A stretch of 33,488 nucleotides of DNA from positions 1-33,488 of IMG/VR virus record IMGVR_UViG_3300043774_001052. One strand, given 5' to 3'. Position 1 is the stretch's first letter, and every line of letters starts with the position of its first letter. Of this stretch, positions 399-33,488 are shown piece by piece. The notes under the pieces were generated by a model. It searched no databases. It saw only the letters and a program-made list of their open reading frames with translations, and was not told the origin of the DNA. Both the position numbers and the translations under genes were made by a program. Origin of the DNA: a virus.

Positions 399-1103
399 TT
401 ACTTACTCTTTTTATATTTTTTTATTTCAAATAGATCTTCCATAATATCTGATAAAGACATACTATCTGTGTCTTGATATTCATAGTCATGATAGTTTGT
501 ATTAGCTTGACTTATGAAATTTTGAGCATTTGTAATATGATCTTGAATCCAGGCTGGAATATTTTTTTCTTCTCCACCTATTTTTTGTAATAACTCTTGT
601 GCATTTTTAATAATATCACTAAGACTATTGTCTGCCATAGAAACTTCATGATCTTGAGTATCTTCATTCATCCCTGAAGTAGTTTCTCCAGTATGATCTG
701 CTGGTTTAGGATCTAATATCCATCCATAATCTTCTAGTACATCATAGTTGGCTAAAAGTTTTTTAATTTCAGCTTTACCTGTACTAGATAAGTTTCCATA
801 TTTATCTGCATATCCAATAATAGTATCTTCTAATTGATTATATAGATCACTATCCGTTCCAAAATCATTAGATATTCTATCTAATAGATCATGAATAGCA
901 GGTCCTCCAGGAAAGTTAGGATCATTATGATGCTCTTCTACGCCTGCTTTTTTACCAACTCTAAGTGCTGCAAAATCTCCAGCATCTAATTTATCTACTG
1001 GTGGATCTAATTTAGCTATCTGTTTTTGTTTATCAGTTAAATTAATCTCTTCTGATGTATCTTCTAATAAACGGTGTTTCCAATATGATAAACTACTATT
1101 CAT
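399..1103 (-). CDS. Hypothetical phage protein, acidic and helical, 234 aa
   Basis: A full-length acidic ORF with no domain I can name. The N-terminus reads MNSSLSYWKHRLLED, with an LLE triplet at residues 12-14 resembling a T4-type prohead protease site. The region around residues 65-135 (DLLDRISNDFGTDSDLYNQL onward, ending near DYGWILDP) looks like a small helical domain. A low-complexity acidic linker follows, then a C-terminal helical segment ending in lysines (KKYKKSK). It lies in the leftward block of small genes. Just upstream is a 10-bp tandem repeat (1105-1144) that forms most of its leader. The function is unknown; being a minor virion or internal head protein is only inferred from its neighbours. 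Confidence 0.7.
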   Translation of the reverse strand: MNSSLSYWKHRLLEDTSEEINLTDKQKQIAKLDPPVDKLDAGDFAALRVGKKAGVEEHHNDPNFPGGPAIHDLLDRISNDFGTDSDLYNQLEDTIIGYADKYGNLSSTGKAEIKKLLANYDVLEDYGWILDPKPADHTGETTSGMNEDTQDHEVSMADNSLSDIIKNAQELLQKIGGEEKNIPAWIQDHITNAQNFISQANTNYHDYEYQDTDSMSLSDIMEDLFEIKKYKKSK

Positions 1104-1104
1104 G

Positions 1105-1144
1105 TTTATTTATTTTTATTTATTTTTATTTATTTTTATTTATT
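1105..1144. repeat. Four-copy 10-bp AT tandem repeat between two genes
   Basis: The plus strand repeats a 10-base unit, tatttttatt, about four times without interruption. On the coding (minus) strand this reads as repeated AAATAAATAA. It covers the stop codon and last codons of the upstream gene (which ends at 1126) and nearly all of the leader of the gene starting at 1103. Such arrays change length by slippage, and here that would alter the spacing before the start codon or the last residues (INKNK) of the upstream protein. It contains no copy of the ATATTTAT motif found before other late genes. Confidence 0.8.
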
Positions 1145-1506
1145 TCTTTTGCTGCTTTTACTGCTAAATTATATGCCTTAGAACCTTTTCTTGCTGGTTT
1201 TTCTCCTCTAGCTCTTTGAGCTCTTATATTGTGCCAAAGACCTTTATTTTTTTCTTGTAATTCTTGAGTTTTTGGCTCAAACCAATTTGAACACCATTTT
1301 GTAGGATCTTCTATTTGTTGACCAGCTTCATCAACTAATTGATTTGTGTTCATATAGTCTGCATAATCTTGATTACTACACATGTGCATGTCGCCTTCTT
1401 TATAGTAATACTCACATACAGCACAACTAAATCCAACAGAAGAATACATGTATGGTTTTTGTCTTCCGTTTTGATGCTCTCTTAATAAGTCTATTAATTT
1501 TATCAT
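1126..1506 (-). CDS. Small cysteine-containing phage protein with capsid-targeting-like N-terminus, 126 aa
   Basis: The protein starts MIKLIDLLRE, almost the same as the start of two other proteins in this block, and the peptide ends in LRE, fitting the (I/L)xE consensus of the T4 prohead protease. A compact Cys motif follows (C28, C31, C43, C72, in contexts FSCAVCEY, HMCSNQ and KWCSNW), which could bind a metal or Fe-S cluster. The C-terminus (residues 88-126) is basic and resembles a nucleic-acid-binding tail. The ATG at 1506 overlaps the stop of the upstream leucine-rich-repeat gene by one base. I think I have seen similar proteins in marine T4-like phages, but I cannot name the family. 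Packaging in the head is inferred only from the N-terminus. Confidence 0.8.
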   Translation of the reverse strand: MIKLIDLLREHQNGRQKPYMYSSVGFSCAVCEYYYKEGDMHMCSNQDYADYMNTNQLVDEAGQQIEDPTKWCSNWFEPKTQELQEKNKGLWHNIRAQRARGEKPARKGSKAYNLAVKAAKEINKNK

Positions 1507-1919
1507 TATAAATAAATATCACCTTTTACACCAGGTGCCATTTTTCTTATCAATTGTTGTTTTGTATATTTTTTAGCTAGTGGTGTGTTCATTAAATCAA
1601 GATAGCCTCCTACTTTTAGATCATTGGGTAAAGTTTCTATTTTAGTATAGCTTAAATCAAGATCACCTACTACTTCTAGACCTTTAGGTAAAGTTTTGAT
1701 TGGTGTATAATTTAAATATAGATCTCCTCCTACTTTTAGGCCATTAGGTAAACTTGTGATTGGTTTTTTGTATAAATCTAAAGATCCTTTACTACCGTCT
1801 TTTATGTACTGCTGTAATTTTTTTTGAATACTAATATTATAGTTTTTAGACCTTTCTTCTTTAGAACGTCTAGGAGTAAAAAATTCTTCTTCTTTTAATA
1901 AATCTATTAATTTTATCAT
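1506..1919 (-). CDS. Leucine-rich-repeat phage protein with capsid-targeting-like N-terminus, 137 aa
   Basis: I chose the ATG at 1919. A longer frame reaches 1982, but it would overlap the previous gene by 59 bases, and its extra N-terminus is unrelated to the MIKLIDLLKE peptide shared with neighbouring genes. Residues 1-10 end in LKE, an (I/L)xE protease-like site. After a charged helical stretch (11-43) come three 20-residue repeats at about 54-73, 74-93 and 94-113, of the form ITSLPNGLKVGGDLYLNYTP. These are bacterial-type LRR units that should form a short parallel-beta solenoid, usually a protein-binding surface. The C-terminus (QQLIRKMAPGVKGDIYL) caps it. A binding partner cannot be read from sequence. 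The stop overlaps the next start by one base. Confidence 0.8.
   Translation of the reverse strand: MIKLIDLLKEEEFFTPRRSKEERSKNYNISIQKKLQQYIKDGSKGSLDLYKKPITSLPNGLKVGGDLYLNYTPIKTLPKGLEVVGDLDLSYTKIETLPNDLKVGGYLDLMNTPLAKKYTKQQLIRKMAPGVKGDIYL
1512..1519 (-). promoter_or_regulatory. ATATTTAT motif, candidate late promoter element
   Basis: Read on the minus strand this is ATATTTAT within GGTGATATTTATTTATAATG, five bases from the start at 1506. It matches the octamer found before other late-type genes in this window. The gap is short for a -10 box, so transcripts would be nearly leaderless if it is one. It also lies inside the 3' end of the upstream coding region. Confidence 0.35.
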
Positions 1920-1923
1920 ATTT

Positions 1924-2250
1924 TTACCATTTTCGACAACTCCAATATCTAGCTTTCCAGCGCGGGCCAGGATTAGTATCACAATGATGTCTTGCTCTAA
2001 AACTCTTTCGTCTTTTAGGATTATTCTTTTTTATATGAACTCCTTTTTGCCCAAAATTAACTTTAACAACATTACCTTTAGCATTTTTTACATAAACTTT
2101 GAATTTTTTTGTATCTCCAGCCATTGGTTTACCTAATGGTACTGTTCTACCTTGATATTTAGCTTCTAAAATAGGTTGTTGCCAACACTCTTTTATGTAT
2201 TCAGCTAAACACTGAGGACAAAACTCTCCTGAATTAAATTCGTGTATCAT
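1924..2250 (-). CDS. Conserved basic phage protein of unknown function ending YWSCRKW, 108 aa
   Basis: The C-terminal two thirds (from about residue 46, KKFKVYVKNAKGNVVKVNFG, through the basic RRKSFRARHHCD stretch to YWSCRKW) resembles a family I remember from T4-like phages of marine bacteria, with no assigned function. The N-terminus carries a CPQC pair and a third Cys (KECW), possibly a metal site. ILEA near residue 27 is an exact match to an (I/L)xE/A prohead-protease-like site. The protein is strongly basic, so nucleic-acid contact is plausible. It sits between the LRR gene and the ferritin-like gene with 1-4 base gaps. The family memory is moderately secure; the function is unknown. Confidence 0.85.
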   Translation of the reverse strand: MIHEFNSGEFCPQCLAEYIKECWQQPILEAKYQGRTVPLGKPMAGDTKKFKVYVKNAKGNVVKVNFGQKGVHIKKNNPKRRKSFRARHHCDTNPGPRWKARYWSCRKW

Positions 2251-2251
2251 A

Positions 2252-2623
2252 TTAATGTAAAAATGTAAGTTTATATTTAGTAGATTCTATTAAATCAATA
2301 ATTTCATCAACTTGATTTTGTATATATGAATCTTGTGGTATTTGAGTTCTAATTGTTTCTACAAATTTACATAATCCTTGAAAATATAATAATGGATTTT
2401 GATCTTCTTTTATCATTGAAGTCATTCTATAACCTCTAATAATACCATACCTTCCTTGAACTGATTCAGTTATACTGTCTATTAAATCAATTATACTAGT
2501 ATAATAATCTTCCAATGCTTTATGAGCTGCAAAAGATCCAGCACCTTCAGCTTGAAGATGGTATATATGTGCTTGATTACGACTTTGCATTAAAGTTCCT
2601 ATTAAAGACGCAAATTGTTCCAT
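2252..2623 (-). CDS. Ferritin/Dps-like helical protein (DUF5856-type), 123 aa
   Basis: The sequence has the look of the small ferritin-like family annotated as DUF5856 in phages. It is helical, with His residues in AHIYHLQ (H19, H22), FAAHKALEDYY (H34) and an acidic second helix SIIDLIDSITESVQG. Spacing of His, Asp and Glu across helices is typical of a four-helix bundle binding a di-metal centre or resembling Dps. Enzymatic or DNA-protecting activity has not been demonstrated for this protein, and I infer the similarity from motif recall. It starts at the ATG at 2623, overlapping by one base the stop of the preceding gene. A role as a packaged or cytoplasmic Dps-like protein is possible. Confidence 0.75.
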   Translation of the reverse strand: MEQFASLIGTLMQSRNQAHIYHLQAEGAGSFAAHKALEDYYTSIIDLIDSITESVQGRYGIIRGYRMTSMIKEDQNPLLYFQGLCKFVETIRTQIPQDSYIQNQVDEIIDLIESTKYKLTFLH

Positions 2624-2838
2624 TATTTTTTATTTTTTACTAATTTATTATAATCATTCATAGACAAAGATCTACCAGATTTTGATAATTCTATAGCTTT
2701 TTCAGCTACATTATGTAAATCAATATCTGATTTTGCATCTTCTTTTGCATACTCTAATAATCTAATAAATAAAGGGATATTTAATGTTATTTTATCTGTA
2801 GGATTAATTACCTCTTTTAGTAGATCTATTAGTTTCAT
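2623..2838 (-). CDS. Small conserved helical protein with capsid-targeting-like N-terminus, 71 aa
   Basis: It starts MKLIDLLKEVINP, sharing the MxLIDLLKE peptide with two genes further down the block and ending in an LKE protease-like site. The rest (IPLFIRLLEYAKEDAKSDID and onward through LHNVAEKAIELS, then SLSMNDYNKLV) is a short all-helical domain that I believe is widespread in phages of aquatic bacteria as an uncharacterised protein. Both ends show one-base TAATG-type overlaps with neighbours, which suggests translational coupling. Removal of the first nine residues would leave the intact conserved domain, as expected if the peptide is a separable targeting signal. Confidence 0.8.
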   Translation of the reverse strand: MKLIDLLKEVINPTDKITLNIPLFIRLLEYAKEDAKSDIDLHNVAEKAIELSKSGRSLSMNDYNKLVKNKK

Positions 2839-4488: not shown

Positions 4489-6924
4489 TTATCTTTGAAT
4501 CGCTCTATTTGCGGCAGTGAATCCTGATCTATTAACTAGTTTTATATCTCCTTTAGGATCTGATATTACATAACCCTCACCTCCTGCTAAATCACCTATA
4601 GAGGATTTAACTCCTAAATCTTGAGAATCTAATTGATTTATTAAATCATCTTTTATTGCTATTATACCTTGTACTGTTAAAAATAATTTATCTAATGATT
4701 TTATATTATTATTACAATATTCTATAATATTATTTTTTTTAATTTCAGATAAAGATGATTCTTTTTTTATAAACTCAATAAATTCTCTACTAGTTAATGA
4801 TTTTAAATTATCTACTTTTGAATTTGTAAATTTATATAATAAATCAGGAAGATTTGAAATTTTCATAGATACTAATTTAGATTTGTCTAATAGTGTATCT
4901 ATATCTTTTGCATTGGCTGATATTTGATTTTTAATATTTGATATATTACTAATATTAACTTTAGGAGGATTTTGTATAAATACTGGAGGTACTACAAATA
5001 ATCCAGAATCAGTCTTAAAATTATAGTCTGATATATTTTTAATAGGAATTTCTTGACCTTCTGTAGAAATATATCTATGTAATACCACTCCTACTTTACT
5101 TGCTCCAATTTTTTTTCCCATATCACTATCAGCTAATACTGAATATGTAGTTATATTTGGTTTAAATACATAATGATCATTTTCTATTCCTGGAGTAGAT
5201 TGGTATAATAGATCTCCTTTAAAAAATCCTTTTAAGTTTTTTGGAAAAGAATTTTTAAATATATTAAAAATATTGCCCATACTATTTGCAAAATTAATAT
5301 ATTGTTTAGATATAGGTTTACCAGATTTTTTTCCTCTATTTAAAAACATATTCTTTAATTCTTCACCAGAAGTTGCTTTACCATTATATCCTTTTGCTGT
5401 AAAACCAGATTTATCTGTTAGAATAAATTTACCGTCATCTCCTACACCAAATATTACTGCTGGACTGCCATCCCATTTTACTGACGCTTTATTTGGATCT
5501 TTAACTATAGACAACATAGTTGCTAAAGCTCTTTTTGCACCTTTACTACCTTCCCAATATGTTAAATCTTCTGGGTGTTGTATTCTTGCTTCAGCTTCAT
5601 TTATTAGTTCTTCATTTAATGTTAATCCTTTTTTATCAAAATCAGTTTCTGCTTGCGCTATTAAGTTTTTATAATTGGGTTTATTTTTTATAATATTGAT
5701 TATTGATTCTACATTAGATAAATCTTCCCTAGTAGCATTATCTCCTAATAATATTTTAGCAATTTCATCAGGATTTTTTGTAATAACTTTATTTGTTTGT
5801 CTATCTACTAATCCATTTATATAAGACCACTTTAATCCTAATGCTTTTGCAATAGATGACATTAATAAATGACGATCTACTCCTTTAAATTTAGAATTAT
5901 CAGCACCTCCTTTCATACTAAATTTCATCCAGTCTCTATCTCCAAACATAAAGTCAGATTGTACATAACCATTTTTAGGATCTCCATTAATTGGAGTTTT
6001 TAAATGTACATTAGTACCGATTTTTTTAATATCATTTTTTGAAAAATATTTAGACAATAAAGATACTAGATCATTTTTTGAAATTTCATTTTCATCAACA
6101 GCTAAATCTAAATCTCCACTACTGTCTTTTTTACCAGTAGTTCCTAACATATTATCTACTAAATCTAAATTAGTTATTTTCTCTAAGTATTTTACAGTAG
6201 GTATTACATCTATTTTATTTATTCTTTGAGTAGCTTCTTTACCATCTTCAGTTTTAAAAACATGGCCTCCTTCATTTAATAAATTCTTACTAATACCCTC
6301 TACTAATATTTTTATTATAGATTCATTAATTTTTTTATTTTGTGTAAATTTTTTGTATAATAAATCTTGTAATTTAGGATCTTCAAATCCAAATATATAC
6401 TTAAATAATTTAGAATTTTGTTTTGGATCTTGAGATAAAGCTTTTCTAATTTCTGTTCCACTCATTTCACCATATCCTGGTATTTCTAATGAAACATGTG
6501 GTGCTACAATTAAATAACCATGCTCTGTATATGGAGCTAATGGTTTTTTTGGATCATATACTTGAAAATATGAGTCTTTTCCAGATTTTAATTTTCCTAT
6601 TTTAAATCTAGGATCTTCTTGCATATCTTTAGATCCTACCATAAACACTATTGCTGTTGTATTAGGATCAAATTTAGATGTTATTTCTTCTGCTTTATAT
6701 GGATTTTTAACTTGTATAAATTGATTGCCAATACCATATTTATCTGCAATCATTTTTTTCTCTTTAAAAGAAAGCGGACTTTTTGGTAAATCAACTTTAT
6801 CAGATGTAGCTATAAATGTTTTATCTTTACCAAATTTACTAGCTAACCATTTATAAGCATCAAAATGATGGCGACCCATTGGTTGAAAACGTCCTGGGTA
6901 CACTGCTATCACTGTTTTTATCAT
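4489..6924 (-). CDS. Three-domain nucleotidyltransferase protein (HIGH-type, pol-beta-type, ligase-type; DUF6267-like), 811 aa
   Basis: Three nucleotidyl-transfer signatures occur in series. Residues 1-190 look like an HxGH-class adenylyl/cytidylyltransferase: GRFQPMGRHH (11-20) and MSGTEIRKAL (154-163, the SxTxIR element). Residues about 220-410 carry a pol-beta-type motif: GTTGKKDSSGDLDLAVD (G261, D271, D273) and a third Asp in QSDFMF (D324). Residues about 445-811 resemble the covalent ligase/capping family: KWDG (K483, candidate nucleotidylated lysine), a motif III-like FFKGDLLY (567-574), EGYVIS (783-788) and KLVNRS (795-800). Related DUF6267 proteins occur in marine T4-like phages; their reaction is unknown to me. 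The interdomain linkers contain LVE/G, LNE/G and INE/A, which resemble prohead-protease sites. NAD, RNA or DNA-end metabolism is inferred. It follows an ATATTTAT motif. Confidence 0.88.
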   Translation of the reverse strand: MIKTVIAVYPGRFQPMGRHHFDAYKWLASKFGKDKTFIATSDKVDLPKSPLSFKEKKMIADKYGIGNQFIQVKNPYKAEEITSKFDPNTTAIVFMVGSKDMQEDPRFKIGKLKSGKDSYFQVYDPKKPLAPYTEHGYLIVAPHVSLEIPGYGEMSGTEIRKALSQDPKQNSKLFKYIFGFEDPKLQDLLYKKFTQNKKINESIIKILVEGISKNLLNEGGHVFKTEDGKEATQRINKIDVIPTVKYLEKITNLDLVDNMLGTTGKKDSSGDLDLAVDENEISKNDLVSLLSKYFSKNDIKKIGTNVHLKTPINGDPKNGYVQSDFMFGDRDWMKFSMKGGADNSKFKGVDRHLLMSSIAKALGLKWSYINGLVDRQTNKVITKNPDEIAKILLGDNATREDLSNVESIINIIKNKPNYKNLIAQAETDFDKKGLTLNEELINEAEARIQHPEDLTYWEGSKGAKRALATMLSIVKDPNKASVKWDGSPAVIFGVGDDGKFILTDKSGFTAKGYNGKATSGEELKNMFLNRGKKSGKPISKQYINFANSMGNIFNIFKNSFPKNLKGFFKGDLLYQSTPGIENDHYVFKPNITTYSVLADSDMGKKIGASKVGVVLHRYISTEGQEIPIKNISDYNFKTDSGLFVVPPVFIQNPPKVNISNISNIKNQISANAKDIDTLLDKSKLVSMKISNLPDLLYKFTNSKVDNLKSLTSREFIEFIKKESSLSEIKKNNIIEYCNNNIKSLDKLFLTVQGIIAIKDDLINQLDSQDLGVKSSIGDLAGGEGYVISDPKGDIKLVNRSGFTAANRAIQR

Positions 6925-17044: not shown

Positions 17045-17485
17045 ATGGCAAAAATAGATTTACTAAGAAAATTAATAAGAGAAGAACTTACTTATGTTAT
17101 TAAGCAAGAGTTACCTAAATTATTATCCGAAGTTAATAAACCTGCTATAATAGACCATAAAAAAAACTTACAAGAGTCAATAAAGTCTAAAATTCCAGGT
17201 ACTTTAAATACTTCTAGACCTGCTATTAAAAAATTTACATCAAACAATCCATTATCAGCTTTATTAAATGAGACTGCTACTAGTATGTTAAATGAAGATA
17301 TACACATGACTTCTGATGATGTGCATCCATCATTAGGATTTCAACCTAGAGAAGCTAGTGTTGGTGATGTAAATAGTATGCTAAGTAGTGCTAGAGCTAG
17401 CAGTAATATAGATGCAGTTCAAATAAACGAAGTTCCTGATTTTACAGGACTTATGAATAAACTAAAACAATCTGGTCAAATATAA
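17045..17485 (+). CDS. Hypothetical baseplate-region protein with IRE-ended N-terminus, 146 aa
   Basis: The protein starts MAKIDLLRKLIREELTYV, a variant of the IDLL peptide seen on leftward genes, and contains the (I/L)xE triplet IRE at residues 11-13. The rest is low-complexity and likely extended, with a conserved-looking SNNPLSALLNETATSMLNED segment (about 65-84) and GFQPREASVGDVNSML. Its stop overlaps the gp25 start by one base, so it is expressed with the baseplate genes. The function is not recognised. Whether the N-terminus is a true targeting signal here is doubtful, since it sits among tail genes. Confidence 0.7.
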   Translation: MAKIDLLRKLIREELTYVIKQELPKLLSEVNKPAIIDHKKNLQESIKSKIPGTLNTSRPAIKKFTSNNPLSALLNETATSMLNEDIHMTSDDVHPSLGFQPREASVGDVNSMLSSARASSNIDAVQINEVPDFTGLMNKLKQSGQI

Positions 17486-30482: not shown

Positions 30483-33400
30483 ATGAGTTTAATATTAAGA
30501 CTTGTAAAAGGATCTGCATTATCATATTCAGAGTTAGATAGTAATTTTATATATTTAAGTCAGTCTATAGTAGATATTACACAAAATAGTTCGATAACTT
30601 TAGCTGGTACAGATAATTATCTAGCTATGTTTAGTGCTTCATCAACTGCATTAACATCTAGTTTATTAAAACAATCTGGTAATACATTACAAATTACTGG
30701 TAGTTTAAGTATATTTGGAGATATTGTAGCACAACAATTAGTTGTTAATACTGTATCATCATCTGTATCATATAGTTCAGGATCTAATATTTTTGGTAAT
30801 GATTTATCAAATACTCAAATATTAACTGGATCTGTAAAAATTACAGGCAGTCTTGAAGTTTACGGACCTACTAATTTATATGGTACAACATCTATAACAG
30901 GTCCTACTACTATCAATAATTTAACTGGATCTTTACAAGGTACTGCTAGTTGGGCTATGAATGTGGTAAATGATTCATCCGCTATAAGAGCGTTTAGTAG
31001 TAGTTTATATAGTATAAGACCAGCAGCTTTAGTACCAGATATAACTTCTTATGGATCTATATTTTTATTATCTGGTTCTGGGGTAAATTCTACTAATGCT
31101 TATAATGATATTTTTATAGGTAGTTATAGTGGATTTGGTGCAACTAATACAAATAGATGTATATTTTTAGGAACAGATTCAGGATATGGATCTACATCTA
31201 CACAAAATTCTATTTTTATAGGACAATCTACAGGTACATCAGCTACTTCAGCAATTGAAAGTATATTTTTAGGTTTAAATGCTGGATCAAATTCTAATGG
31301 TATTACAAGATCTAATTTTATAGGGTCTAATGTTGGTAGTTCAACTAATGCAAGTTATTCTAATTTTTTCGGTTATGGAACTGGATTTTTAGCTATCAAT
31401 GCAAGTAATTCTAATTTTATAGGATTGTATGCTGGTTATCAAGCAACTAATGCGATATATTCTAATTTTATAGGTAATCAAGCTGGTTATCAAGCAACTA
31501 ATGCGGTATATTCTAATTTTATAGGTACATTTTCTGGATTTGGTTCAATTAATTCTTCATATAGTAATTATATTGGTTATTTTGCAGGAGTTAATTCACC
31601 TACTTTAGGTTCTAATAATATTATTATTGGAACTAATATTACATTACCAGATTCAACTAGTGATGGAATTAATATTGGAGGATTAATATTTGGTACTAAT
31701 GCATATAATATTCTTGTAGGTAATCCATCATCAGGTCCTGCTTTTGGTAAAATAGGTATTAATCAACCTAGTCCTAAATATTCTTTAGATGTATCTGGTA
31801 GCGGTAATTATTCAAACAATCTAATAGTAACTGGATCTATAACTACAAGAAATAGCTTATCAGTATCTGGATCTATATTTGGAAGTGGTAGTATAAATAT
31901 CTCTGGATCTTTGACTGCGTCACTTCAACAAGGCTATGTATGGGTAGGAGGAGTTAATAATATTAGTACTTTAGTATCAACATCTTCTTTTGGTAGTGGT
32001 AATATTCCAACTCCTGTTATTACTAGTTCTTTTAATACTATTTATAGTTTATTTCCTGCTGCTTTAGTACCAACAAATCATGAAGCTGATTCAATATTTT
32101 TAGGTTTAAATTCTGGTCAAGGAGCTTCTGATACATCTAATACCATATTTTTAGGAACTAATTCAGGTATAGGTACTAGCAATGCTTTTACATCAAATTT
32201 TATTGGTAATCAAGCAGGTGCATATGCAAATGCAGCTCTTAATTCAAATTTTATAGGTAGTAATGCCGGGTCTACTGCAGCAAATGCAGCTCACTCAAAC
32301 TTTATAGGATATTTTGCAGGAGATACTGCTACAGATGCAAGCTATTCTAATTTTATAGGAGCGTATGCTGGTCAAGCAGGGGCTCCTAATTCTAATTTTA
32401 TAGGTAACCAAGCAGGTAGATCTTCTACGAATGCAACCTTCTCTAACTTTATTGGTAATCAAGCAGGTATGTATGCTACATATGCTAGTAGTTCTAATTT
32501 TATTGGTAATCAAGCGGGATTTAATGCATCTACTGCAGCATATTCAAATTTATTTGGTTATTTAGCAGGAGCTGCAATTGGAGGAAATTCTATAGGAACT
32601 AATAATATTATTATAGGAACTAATATTACTTTAGAAGAAAATAGACAGGATTCTATTAATTTAGGTGGTATTATATTCGCAACAGGATCTCACTCAGATG
32701 TTAATGGAAATCCATATTCAGGATCTGCTAATGGTAAAATAGGTATTAATATTTCTATTCCTCAATATGAATTAGATATATCTGGTAGTGGCCAATTTAC
32801 AGGTAATTTAATACTAACTGGATCTTTAACTGCATCCCTTCAAGAAGGTTATGTGTGGGTAGGAGGAGTTAATAATATTAGTACTTTAGTATCAACATCT
32901 TCTTTTTCTGGAGGTGGATCAATTTCTACATCTGGTTCAACCTTATACTCTACTAATCCTCTTACTAATGAATTTAATACAACTAATAGTGTATTTTTTG
33001 GAGTTAATGCTGGATCAAACTCTAATAAAGCGTATGAATCAAATTTTATAGGTAATGCCGCCGGGTCTAGTGCAGCTAATGCAAATAATTCTAATTTTAT
33101 AGGTAGTTTAGCCGGAGCATCTGCAACAAGTGCAAGTAATTCTAACTTTTTTGGAATTTTTGCAGGGTGGCAAGCAACTAATGCTAGTAGTTCAAATTTT
33201 ATAGGGTGGCAAGCTGGTAATCTTGCAGCTAATGCAAATAATTCTAATTTTATAGGTAGTGTAGCCGGAGCATCTGCAACAAGTGCATCTGGATCTAATT
33301 TCATTGGATATAGAGCAGGATCAAATGCAACAAGCGCATCTTTTTCTAATTTTATTGGATATAATACAGGCTATTATGCAAATCAAGCAGCATATTCAAT

Positions 33401-33488
33401 ATTAATTGGTTATGGTGTAGGTAGAAGCTCTAATATGGGATCTCATAACGTAGTATTAGGTACAAATGTAAATGTAGGAAATAATGCT
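30483..33488 (+). CDS. Very repetitive tail fibre with YadA-like head repeats, 3' end beyond window
   Basis: The ATG at 30483 opens a frame of 1002 codons with no stop in the window. It begins MSLILRLVKGSALSYSELDS, a fibre-type N-terminus. Three cassettes follow (about 30990-31890, 31900-32830, 32840 to the edge). Each contains many roughly 16-residue repeats of the form NSNFIGNQAGYQATNA, resembling the left-handed beta-roll head repeats of trimeric autotransporters (YadA/Hia type). Each complete cassette closes with NNIIIGTNITL and GKIGIN followed by a YSLDVSGSG/NLIVTGS stalk of the kind seen in phage tail fibres. The protein is likely a homotrimeric fibre contacting the host surface. A 51-bp exact repeat lies between cassettes. 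Confidence 0.88.
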   Translation, partial: MSLILRLVKGSALSYSELDSNFIYLSQSIVDITQNSSITLAGTDNYLAMFSASSTALTSSLLKQSGNTLQITGSLSIFGDIVAQQLVVNTVSSSVSYSSGSNIFGNDLSNTQILTGSVKITGSLEVYGPTNLYGTTSITGPTTINNLTGSLQGTASWAMNVVNDSSAIRAFSSSLYSIRPAALVPDITSYGSIFLLSGSGVNSTNAYNDIFIGSYSGFGATNTNRCIFLGTDSGYGSTSTQNSIFIGQSTGTSATSAIESIFLGLNAGSNSNGITRSNFIGSNVGSSTNASYSNFFGYGTGFLAINASNSNFIGLYAGYQATNAIYSNFIGNQAGYQATNAVYSNFIGTFSGFGSINSSYSNYIGYFAGVNSPTLGSNNIIIGTNITLPDSTSDGINIGGLIFGTNAYNILVGNPSSGPAFGKIGINQPSPKYSLDVSGSGNYSNNLIVTGSITTRNSLSVSGSIFGSGSINISGSLTASLQQGYVWVGGVNNISTLVSTSSFGSGNIPTPVITSSFNTIYSLFPAALVPTNHEADSIFLGLNSGQGASDTSNTIFLGTNSGIGTSNAFTSNFIGNQAGAYANAALNSNFIGSNAGSTAANAAHSNFIGYFAGDTATDASYSNFIGAYAGQAGAPNSNFIGNQAGRSSTNATFSNFIGNQAGMYATYASSSNFIGNQAGFNASTAAYSNLFGYLAGAAIGGNSIGTNNIIIGTNITLEENRQDSINLGGIIFATGSHSDVNGNPYSGSANGKIGINISIPQYELDISGSGQFTGNLILTGSLTASLQEGYVWVGGVNNISTLVSTSSFSGGGSISTSGSTLYSTNPLTNEFNTTNSVFFGVNAGSNSNKAYESNFIGNAAGSSAANANNSNFIGSLAGASATSASNSNFFGIFAGWQATNASSSNFIGWQAGNLAANANNSNFIGSVAGASATSASGSNFIGYRAGSNATSASFSNFIGYNTGYYANQAAYSILIGYGVGRSSNMGSHNVVLGTNVNVGNNA
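31941..31991 (+). repeat. 51-bp exact direct repeat, copy 1 (in fibre gene)
   Basis: Identical base for base to 32856-32906, starting TGGGTAGGAGGAGTTAATAA. Both encode WVGGVNNISTLVSTSSF in the same frame. The copies are 915 bases apart (305 codons), so recombination between them would delete or add one whole cassette and keep the frame. Confidence 0.9.
32856..32906 (+). repeat. 51-bp exact direct repeat, copy 2 (in fibre gene)
   Basis: Second copy of the 51-base repeat; see 31941-31991. The identity is at DNA level, beyond what protein conservation demands, which suggests recent duplication or gene conversion. The flanks diverge within a few bases (CTATGTA against TTATGTG just before the repeat). 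Confidence 0.9.

Follow-up and report, generated by a model that had tools for sequence, protein, structure and literature searches.

A modular N-terminal leader on unrelated proteins of T4-related phages, inferred to be a capsid-targeting propeptide

In phage T4, the capsid-targeting sequence (CTS) comprises 10 residues, the prohead protease gp21 follows the rule L/I-x-E, and residues 8 and 10 are needed for processing (PMC9026906). Each of the three T4 internal proteins has turned out to be injected and to inhibit type IV restriction enzymes (PMC12373910), and T4 Alt is annotated as a capsid-borne ADP-ribosyltransferase that enters the host with the DNA. In the phiKZ-like phages (phiKZ, 201phi2-1 and SPN3US), which have ejection (E) protein propeptides, many head proteins are cut after Glu by a gp21-like protease; the phiKZ cleavage motif is S/A-x-E (PMC9026906), unlike the (L/I)xE of the leader described here. 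The head-associated counter-defence (antirestriction) proteins DarA and Hdf of phage P1 have been discussed with respect to capsid targeting (PMC9024508, PMC12810830); they are not known to carry one short leader common to many cargos, unlike the new system.

The leader reported here resembles the CTS of T4 IPI, IPII, IPIII and Alt in occupying about ten N-terminal residues of otherwise unrelated proteins and in ending in (L/I)xE, and the two systems are also alike in gp21, in the gp23 cut site and in an ADP-ribosyltransferase (by fold) among the cargo. Identity between the T4 CTS MKTYQEFIAE and the new leader MIKLxDLLxE is limited to length and end pattern, and both are too short for a test of homology. 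While the T4 CTS is found on a handful of proteins, the new leader is found on around 100 cargo families; it further differs from the T4 system in having several interchangeable classes, in hosts that are probably aquatic Bacteroidota and in that packaging is inferred. The leader meets every defining feature of the T4 CTS that can be decided from sequence. With considerable confidence, we interpret M(I)KLxD[IL]LxE as an interchangeable N-terminal capsid-targeting propeptide, packaging and cleavage being inferred, since no virion proteomics was found for any phage with tagged proteins.

Leader-bearing genes of the window

The window, i.e. the whole stretch of viral DNA that was analysed, is a source record of 33,488 bases with a G+C content of 26.6%. 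It is a fragment of a T4-related myovirus genome that contains T4-type genes for SbcCD-like gp46/47, primase and relatives of baseplate gp25 and gp6; the window holds no head genes, and the absence of gp21 from this fragment is a point against the propeptide reading. As the original prediction had described, the starts MIKLIDLLRE, MIKLIDLLKE and MKLIDLLKE stand in front of three unrelated remainders: one has four Cys, one has leucine-rich repeats (LRR) and the third is small and helical. All three genes are on the minus strand at the coordinates given there, and they belong to a co-directional block reaching from a nucleotidyltransferase/DUF6267 gene to the left end of the window.

The 126-aa Cys protein (1126..1506, minus strand; start MIKLIDLLREHQNG) has C28, C31, C43 and C72 invariant in the alignment. 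Its leader MIKLIDLLRE (1477..1506, minus strand), with a predicted cut after E10 (L-R-E), is kept in all close homologues, and tblastn against phage isolates returned zero matches for this protein. The CxxC-x11-C-x28-C spacing together with WCSNW recalls high-potential iron-sulphur proteins and is no more than a lead; the AlphaFold model (pLDDT 51) is too poor for use. The 137-aa LRR-like protein (1506..1919, minus strand; start MIKLIDLLKEEEFF) begins with MIKLIDLLKE (1890..1919, minus strand; predicted cut after E10, L-K-E), a 10-mer that is identical on about 30 unrelated proteins. The mechanical ORF opens with a GTG (position 1982), but the alignment of homologues begins with the first residue encoded from the ATG at 1919, and those in six loci (L003, L052, L192, L292, L320, L327) carry class 1 leaders, defined by the pattern M(I)K-L-x-D-[IL]-L-x-E. 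The 71-aa small helical protein (2623..2838, minus strand; start MKLIDLLKEVINP) has the nine-residue leader MKLIDLLKE (2812..2838, minus strand), with a predicted cut after E9.

Further genes of the window encode proteins of the same kind without a class 1 leader of their own. The product of 1924..2250 (minus strand; weak DUF5754) is a cargo-type protein, and its homologues in other phages have the leaders MIKLIDILNE, MIKLLDILHE and MIKLTDILKE, with similarity starting at query residue 27. The 811-aa nucleotidyltransferase and DUF6267 protein (4489..6924, minus strand) is leaderless in the window, and homologues start with MSLGKYLADQLLKEE (L294) or MSLGNWLAENIIKED (L221). A nucleotidyltransferase-like protein of L111 and L121 has the N-terminus MKFIDFLKESKEKH. 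The 234-aa protein of the block (399..1103, minus strand) has a C-terminal domain that stands behind class 1 leaders elsewhere. That domain alone is common to the homologues, and the protein's own N-terminus at 1103 (HRLLED), suggested as a degenerate leader, was not shown to be one. Two other suggested degenerate members, at 396 (NILLQEF) and at 17045 (IDLLRKLIREE), were dropped because conservation among homologues continues past the motif, in the latter case as a longer helical segment; the gene starting at 17045 (17045..17485, plus strand; start MAKIDLLRKLIREEL) encodes a baseplate-module protein and was judged to lie outside the leader set. Tandem TTTATTTATTTTTATT-like units at 1104-1147 separate two genes of the block. 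At about 30500-33488 on the plus strand, an open-ended ORF with many SNFIGxxAG repeats resembles YadA heads and is probably a tail fibre adhesin.

Number, phage specificity and modularity of the leader

Searching relatives for the N-terminal pattern extended the leader far beyond the three proteins of the original prediction: in all loci fetched, it begins at least 309 unique proteins, which form 114 blast clusters. The number of cargo families depends on the cut-off (95-119 clusters under other definitions). Many of the sequences are related and cannot count as independent; values weighted by cluster were used where possible. The open-access literature that was searched (subscription papers were outside its scope) does not describe the leader, and we know of no MIKLxDLLxE leader on P1 DarA or Hdf.

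An exact degenerate scan for ATG-IKLIDLLKE identified 53 viral contigs with about 30 unrelated cargos, and no gene start across bacterial and archaeal genomes totalling 257 Gb, where the lone match was a 27-residue out-of-frame chance ORF reading MIKFIDFFKE. The leader is a phage-specific feature and recurs far more often than chance allows. The related pattern MIKLxDILxE was found in at least 120 contigs of the viral collection, and the 76 loci with matches among those listed contribute at least 96 ORFs in at least 49 cargo families; no upstream in-frame ATG was present for 90 of the 96 ORFs listed, and two or three matches to the pattern occurred in 16 of the 80 loci listed. A control pattern of equal degeneracy, with K and D swapped, matched 14 ORFs, belonging to 5 families, in the entire viral collection. 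Since the swapped pattern matches genuine N-terminal ORFs in gp21-bearing contigs, it may itself be a leader variant and is hence a conservative control. ORFs starting MIDLxKILxE, which the swapped pattern picked up (L344, L346, L347, L349, L356), include all five gp21-bearing control contigs, and MIDLxKILxE may be another variant of the leader.

Could the shared start be a property of the DNA, such as a start region that enhances translation, or a recombination cassette? Codon usage lends this some support: Ile7 is encoded by ATA in 97% of class 1 leaders versus 47% in gene bodies, and Asp6 by GAC in 59% versus 18%. However, 29 of 30 identical MIKLIDLLKE peptides have different 30-mers and third-position identity is 0.606 versus 0.57 expected, so that selection acts on the peptide. 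A cassette was rejected on the ground that synonymous 30-mers differ for identical peptides, and the DNA-level explanation, largely refuted, is hardly tenable.

The leader was also found to be exchangeable. Four recurrent leader classes were distinguished: MIKLxDLLxE, MKKSxLRxLIREE, MxNFDLKKFLVENKLT and FxRMQKLAGIxxE. The last three sit on unrelated proteins in four contigs (G019, G002, G031, G013) and in Flavobacterium phage immuto (L364), nearly all have (I/L)xE nearby, and their cargo families overlap the MIKLxDLLxE set. At least six cargo families carry two or more classes, e.g. the KQVGxLYHFT family with MIKLIDLLKE and MKKSQLKQLIKEEILKALNE, and the CPxxTQNxELNL family with MIKLIDLLKE and MDNFNLRKYLAEGK. 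A related family has the Cys domain of the window preceded by a class 3 leader, and in L051 this domain is fused without leader in a larger protein (homology from residue 18). Similarly, the homologue of the 71-aa protein in L325 lacks the leader and begins at query residue 9, that in L282 has the same domain behind another leader, MDNLTLRYLIREA, and in L228, L045 and L231 the domain lies deep within larger proteins. Homologues with another leader, with none, or fused internally indicate that the peptide is a module and not part of the fold. The original prediction had named a conserved part of the fold as an outcome that would refute it, and the homologues speak otherwise. An ancestral piece of a shared fold would explain why the leader is often conserved inside single cargo families; against it stand the unrelated cargos, the swapping of leaders, the leaderless and fused homologues and the modelled ADP-ribosyltransferase-fold matches, which begin at about residue 10. 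We give this possibility virtually no credence, and it is refuted by the unrelated cargos and by leaders that are swapped, absent or fused.

A blind test was performed in which the first residues of all ORFs of a genome were compared pairwise, pairs related elsewhere were excluded and internal windows served as the null. From T4 (50-150 kb), it recovered the IPII/IPIII capsid-targeting sequence MKTYQEFIAE (twice) and an MKTFKEF relative, and from G002, G013, G019 and G031 the MIKLxDLLxE leader. In these four contigs and immuto it variously returned the MKKSxLRxLIREE, NFDLKKFLVENKLT and FxRMQKLAGI classes, as well as ordinary hydrophobic signal sequences, and pairs were about three to seven times as numerous as in the mean null. 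Taken alone, G001 gave a negative result, as did Mel-JY01 and RM378; HTVC008M was no better than its null. The negative result for G001 is explained by its single leader ORF (strict pattern) and by the lack of intact counterparts of the LRR and small-protein genes of the window.

The motifs ATATTTAT/TATTTATA occur at most 30 nt from the start of 18% of class 1, 35% of class 2-4 and 8.5% of other ORFs, for example upstream of class 1-4 leader genes in L016, L017, L025 and L052. The reverse complement of this upstream element, TATAAATA, is rare. The element may serve this clade as a late promoter or a start element.

Predicted cleavage and linkage to head genes

The claim that the leader ends in (I/L)xE held without being imposed in the scan: with residues 9-10 left free, E10 was present in 59 of 67 genuine starts, residues 9 and 11 being variable, and most of the eight remaining starts have [LIV]xE a few residues on (e.g. 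MIKLKDILLSEN, MIKLKDILINEA). Among 73 ORFs outside the seed patterns, 66 have E10 and 72 have L or I at position 8. Relative entropy is 3.84 bits at residue 10, which was imposed in that set, drops to 0.39 at residue 11 and stays at 0.12-0.29 beyond. Proline is absent from residue 11 in all 252 leaders, the next eleven positions having 6-27; after weighting by cargo cluster, none of 95 has it, where about 5 would be expected on average. E10, the collapse of conservation after it and the absence of Pro at residue 11 are as expected of a protease site after (L/I)xE, although the avoidance of Pro could alternatively reflect a continuing leader helix. Directly behind the predicted cut, isoleucine rather than alanine is most common, which counts against the propeptide reading. 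The leader end, as predicted, falls exactly where a phage head protease should cut, and the leader is therefore very probably a removable address label.

A suitable protease is present in the clade. gp21 (Peptidase_S77, PF03420) was identified in 34 of 93 leader contigs, most of which are fragments, and is present in the 63-kb to 183-kb contigs G001, G002, G013, G019 and G031; among 23 contigs with KLIDLLKE internal to a protein, none contained gp21. Because the two sets of contigs are not matched in size, this contrast is supportive only. When major capsid proteins were aligned, the T4 gp23 site FLTE/A fell on QLVVE, QIVSE/A and QLISE/A with the Glu invariant, and fourteen capsid proteins of the set have the motif QAKQ(L/I)xxE. 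In the absence of a measured cut, the specificity of the clade protease on the major capsid protein is inferred to be [LIV]xE.

The leader might instead stay uncleaved and serve to dock the protein on an assembly partner, e.g. the scaffold, the portal or a late complex outside the capsid. Amphipathic helices often dock without cleavage, and the case for cutting consists of a sequence pattern only; yet the (L/I)xE boundary, the variable residue 9 and the lack of any Pro at residue 11 agree with a protease site, and the capsid protein of the clade shares the cut motif. We regard uncleaved docking as unlikely.

Leader genes are furthermore linked to head genes. In G001 (IMGVR_UViG_3300017917_003968, 63 kb), whose 811-aa protein is 99% identical to that of the window, the block continues directly, on one strand, into the genes for TerL, portal, gp21, a gp22-like scaffold and the major capsid protein. 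In TerL-bearing loci, each of the 45 tagged ORFs shares its strand with TerL. The linkage is not uniform, as tagged genes of G013 and G031 are distant from head genes. This distance, together with the many enzymes among the cargo, would suit a helix that is unconnected with heads and that, during infection, localises proteins or binds a partner inside the cell (membrane, host protein or phage compartment). Such a role is made very doubtful by the linkage to gp21, the gp21-type boundary, the strand and neighbourhood that tie the leader to head genes, and the T4 CTS parallel. The reading as a capsid-targeting signal, put forward by the original prediction for the three proteins, is supported by the modular leader, its (I/L)xE boundary, gp21 in the clade and the gp21 site in the capsid protein.

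As a capsid-targeting propeptide, the amphipathic leader of about ten residues would dock its cargo, late in infection, on the scaffold core of a T4-type prohead. A gp21-type prohead protease would then cut the cargo after (L/I)-x-E, as for the major capsid protein, and the mature cargo, varied small proteins and enzymes, would stay in the head. The cargo would probably enter the host with the DNA and act on host metabolism or defence, like T4 IPI-III and Alt. None of these steps has been measured: packaging and cleavage are strongly inferred, docking and injection inferred, and injection of the cargo, which leans on the analogy with T4, we consider somewhat more likely than not. In a broader proposal, which could equally well hold or fail, at least four interchangeable leader classes together direct enzymes and counter-defence proteins, a large cargo that changes quickly, to the head, and different leaders may bind different scaffold proteins and so set copy number or place.

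Cargo proteins and probable host

Pfam matches on the cargo, some of which fall below the curated cut-off, include zeta-toxin/AAA kinases, NUDIX (from residue 15), RNase T-like exonuclease, M23 peptidase combined with phage lysozyme, cell-wall hydrolase, alpha/beta hydrolase and LigT/Acb1-like phosphoesterase. The KQVGxLYHFT family was modelled (pLDDT 74) with an ADP-ribosyltransferase fold at residues 10-181, the leader being excluded from the matched region as a low-confidence helix. Foldseek matched the model to yeast tRNA 2'-phosphotransferase (E 7e-4), and VIA gave Z 9.5 to tRNA 2'-phosphotransferase (Tpt1) and 8.0 to DarT. On this model, the family belongs to the ADP-ribosyltransferase superfamily by fold; activity has not been shown. 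If the leader is the counterpart of the T4 CTS, its N-terminal pattern selects from environmental phages hundreds of candidate injected effectors, which fall into around 100 protein families, among them the ADP-ribosyltransferase fold, zeta-toxin-like kinases, NUDIX proteins, nucleases, hydrolases and the LigT/Acb1-like phosphoesterase, and it would provide a ready packaging label for Bacteroidota phages.

Comparison of capsid proteins places Flavobacterium phage immuto (55%) and Microcystis phage Mel-JY01 (50%) nearest among isolates. Immuto retains the gene order (primase, nucleotidyltransferase, small genes, TerL, portal, gp21, major capsid protein), and it has proteins that start with MRLLELLRE, MISIYNILKE and MIKLIDLLTE. 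From the nearest isolates and the gene order and leaders of immuto, we infer that the host of the window phage is probably an aquatic member of the Bacteroidota. The gene at 112261-112575 of NC_055915, annotated as tRNA(Ile2) agmatinyltransferase, encodes a 104-aa protein with the leader MRLLELLRE from an otherwise uncharacterised family, and the annotation is probably wrong.
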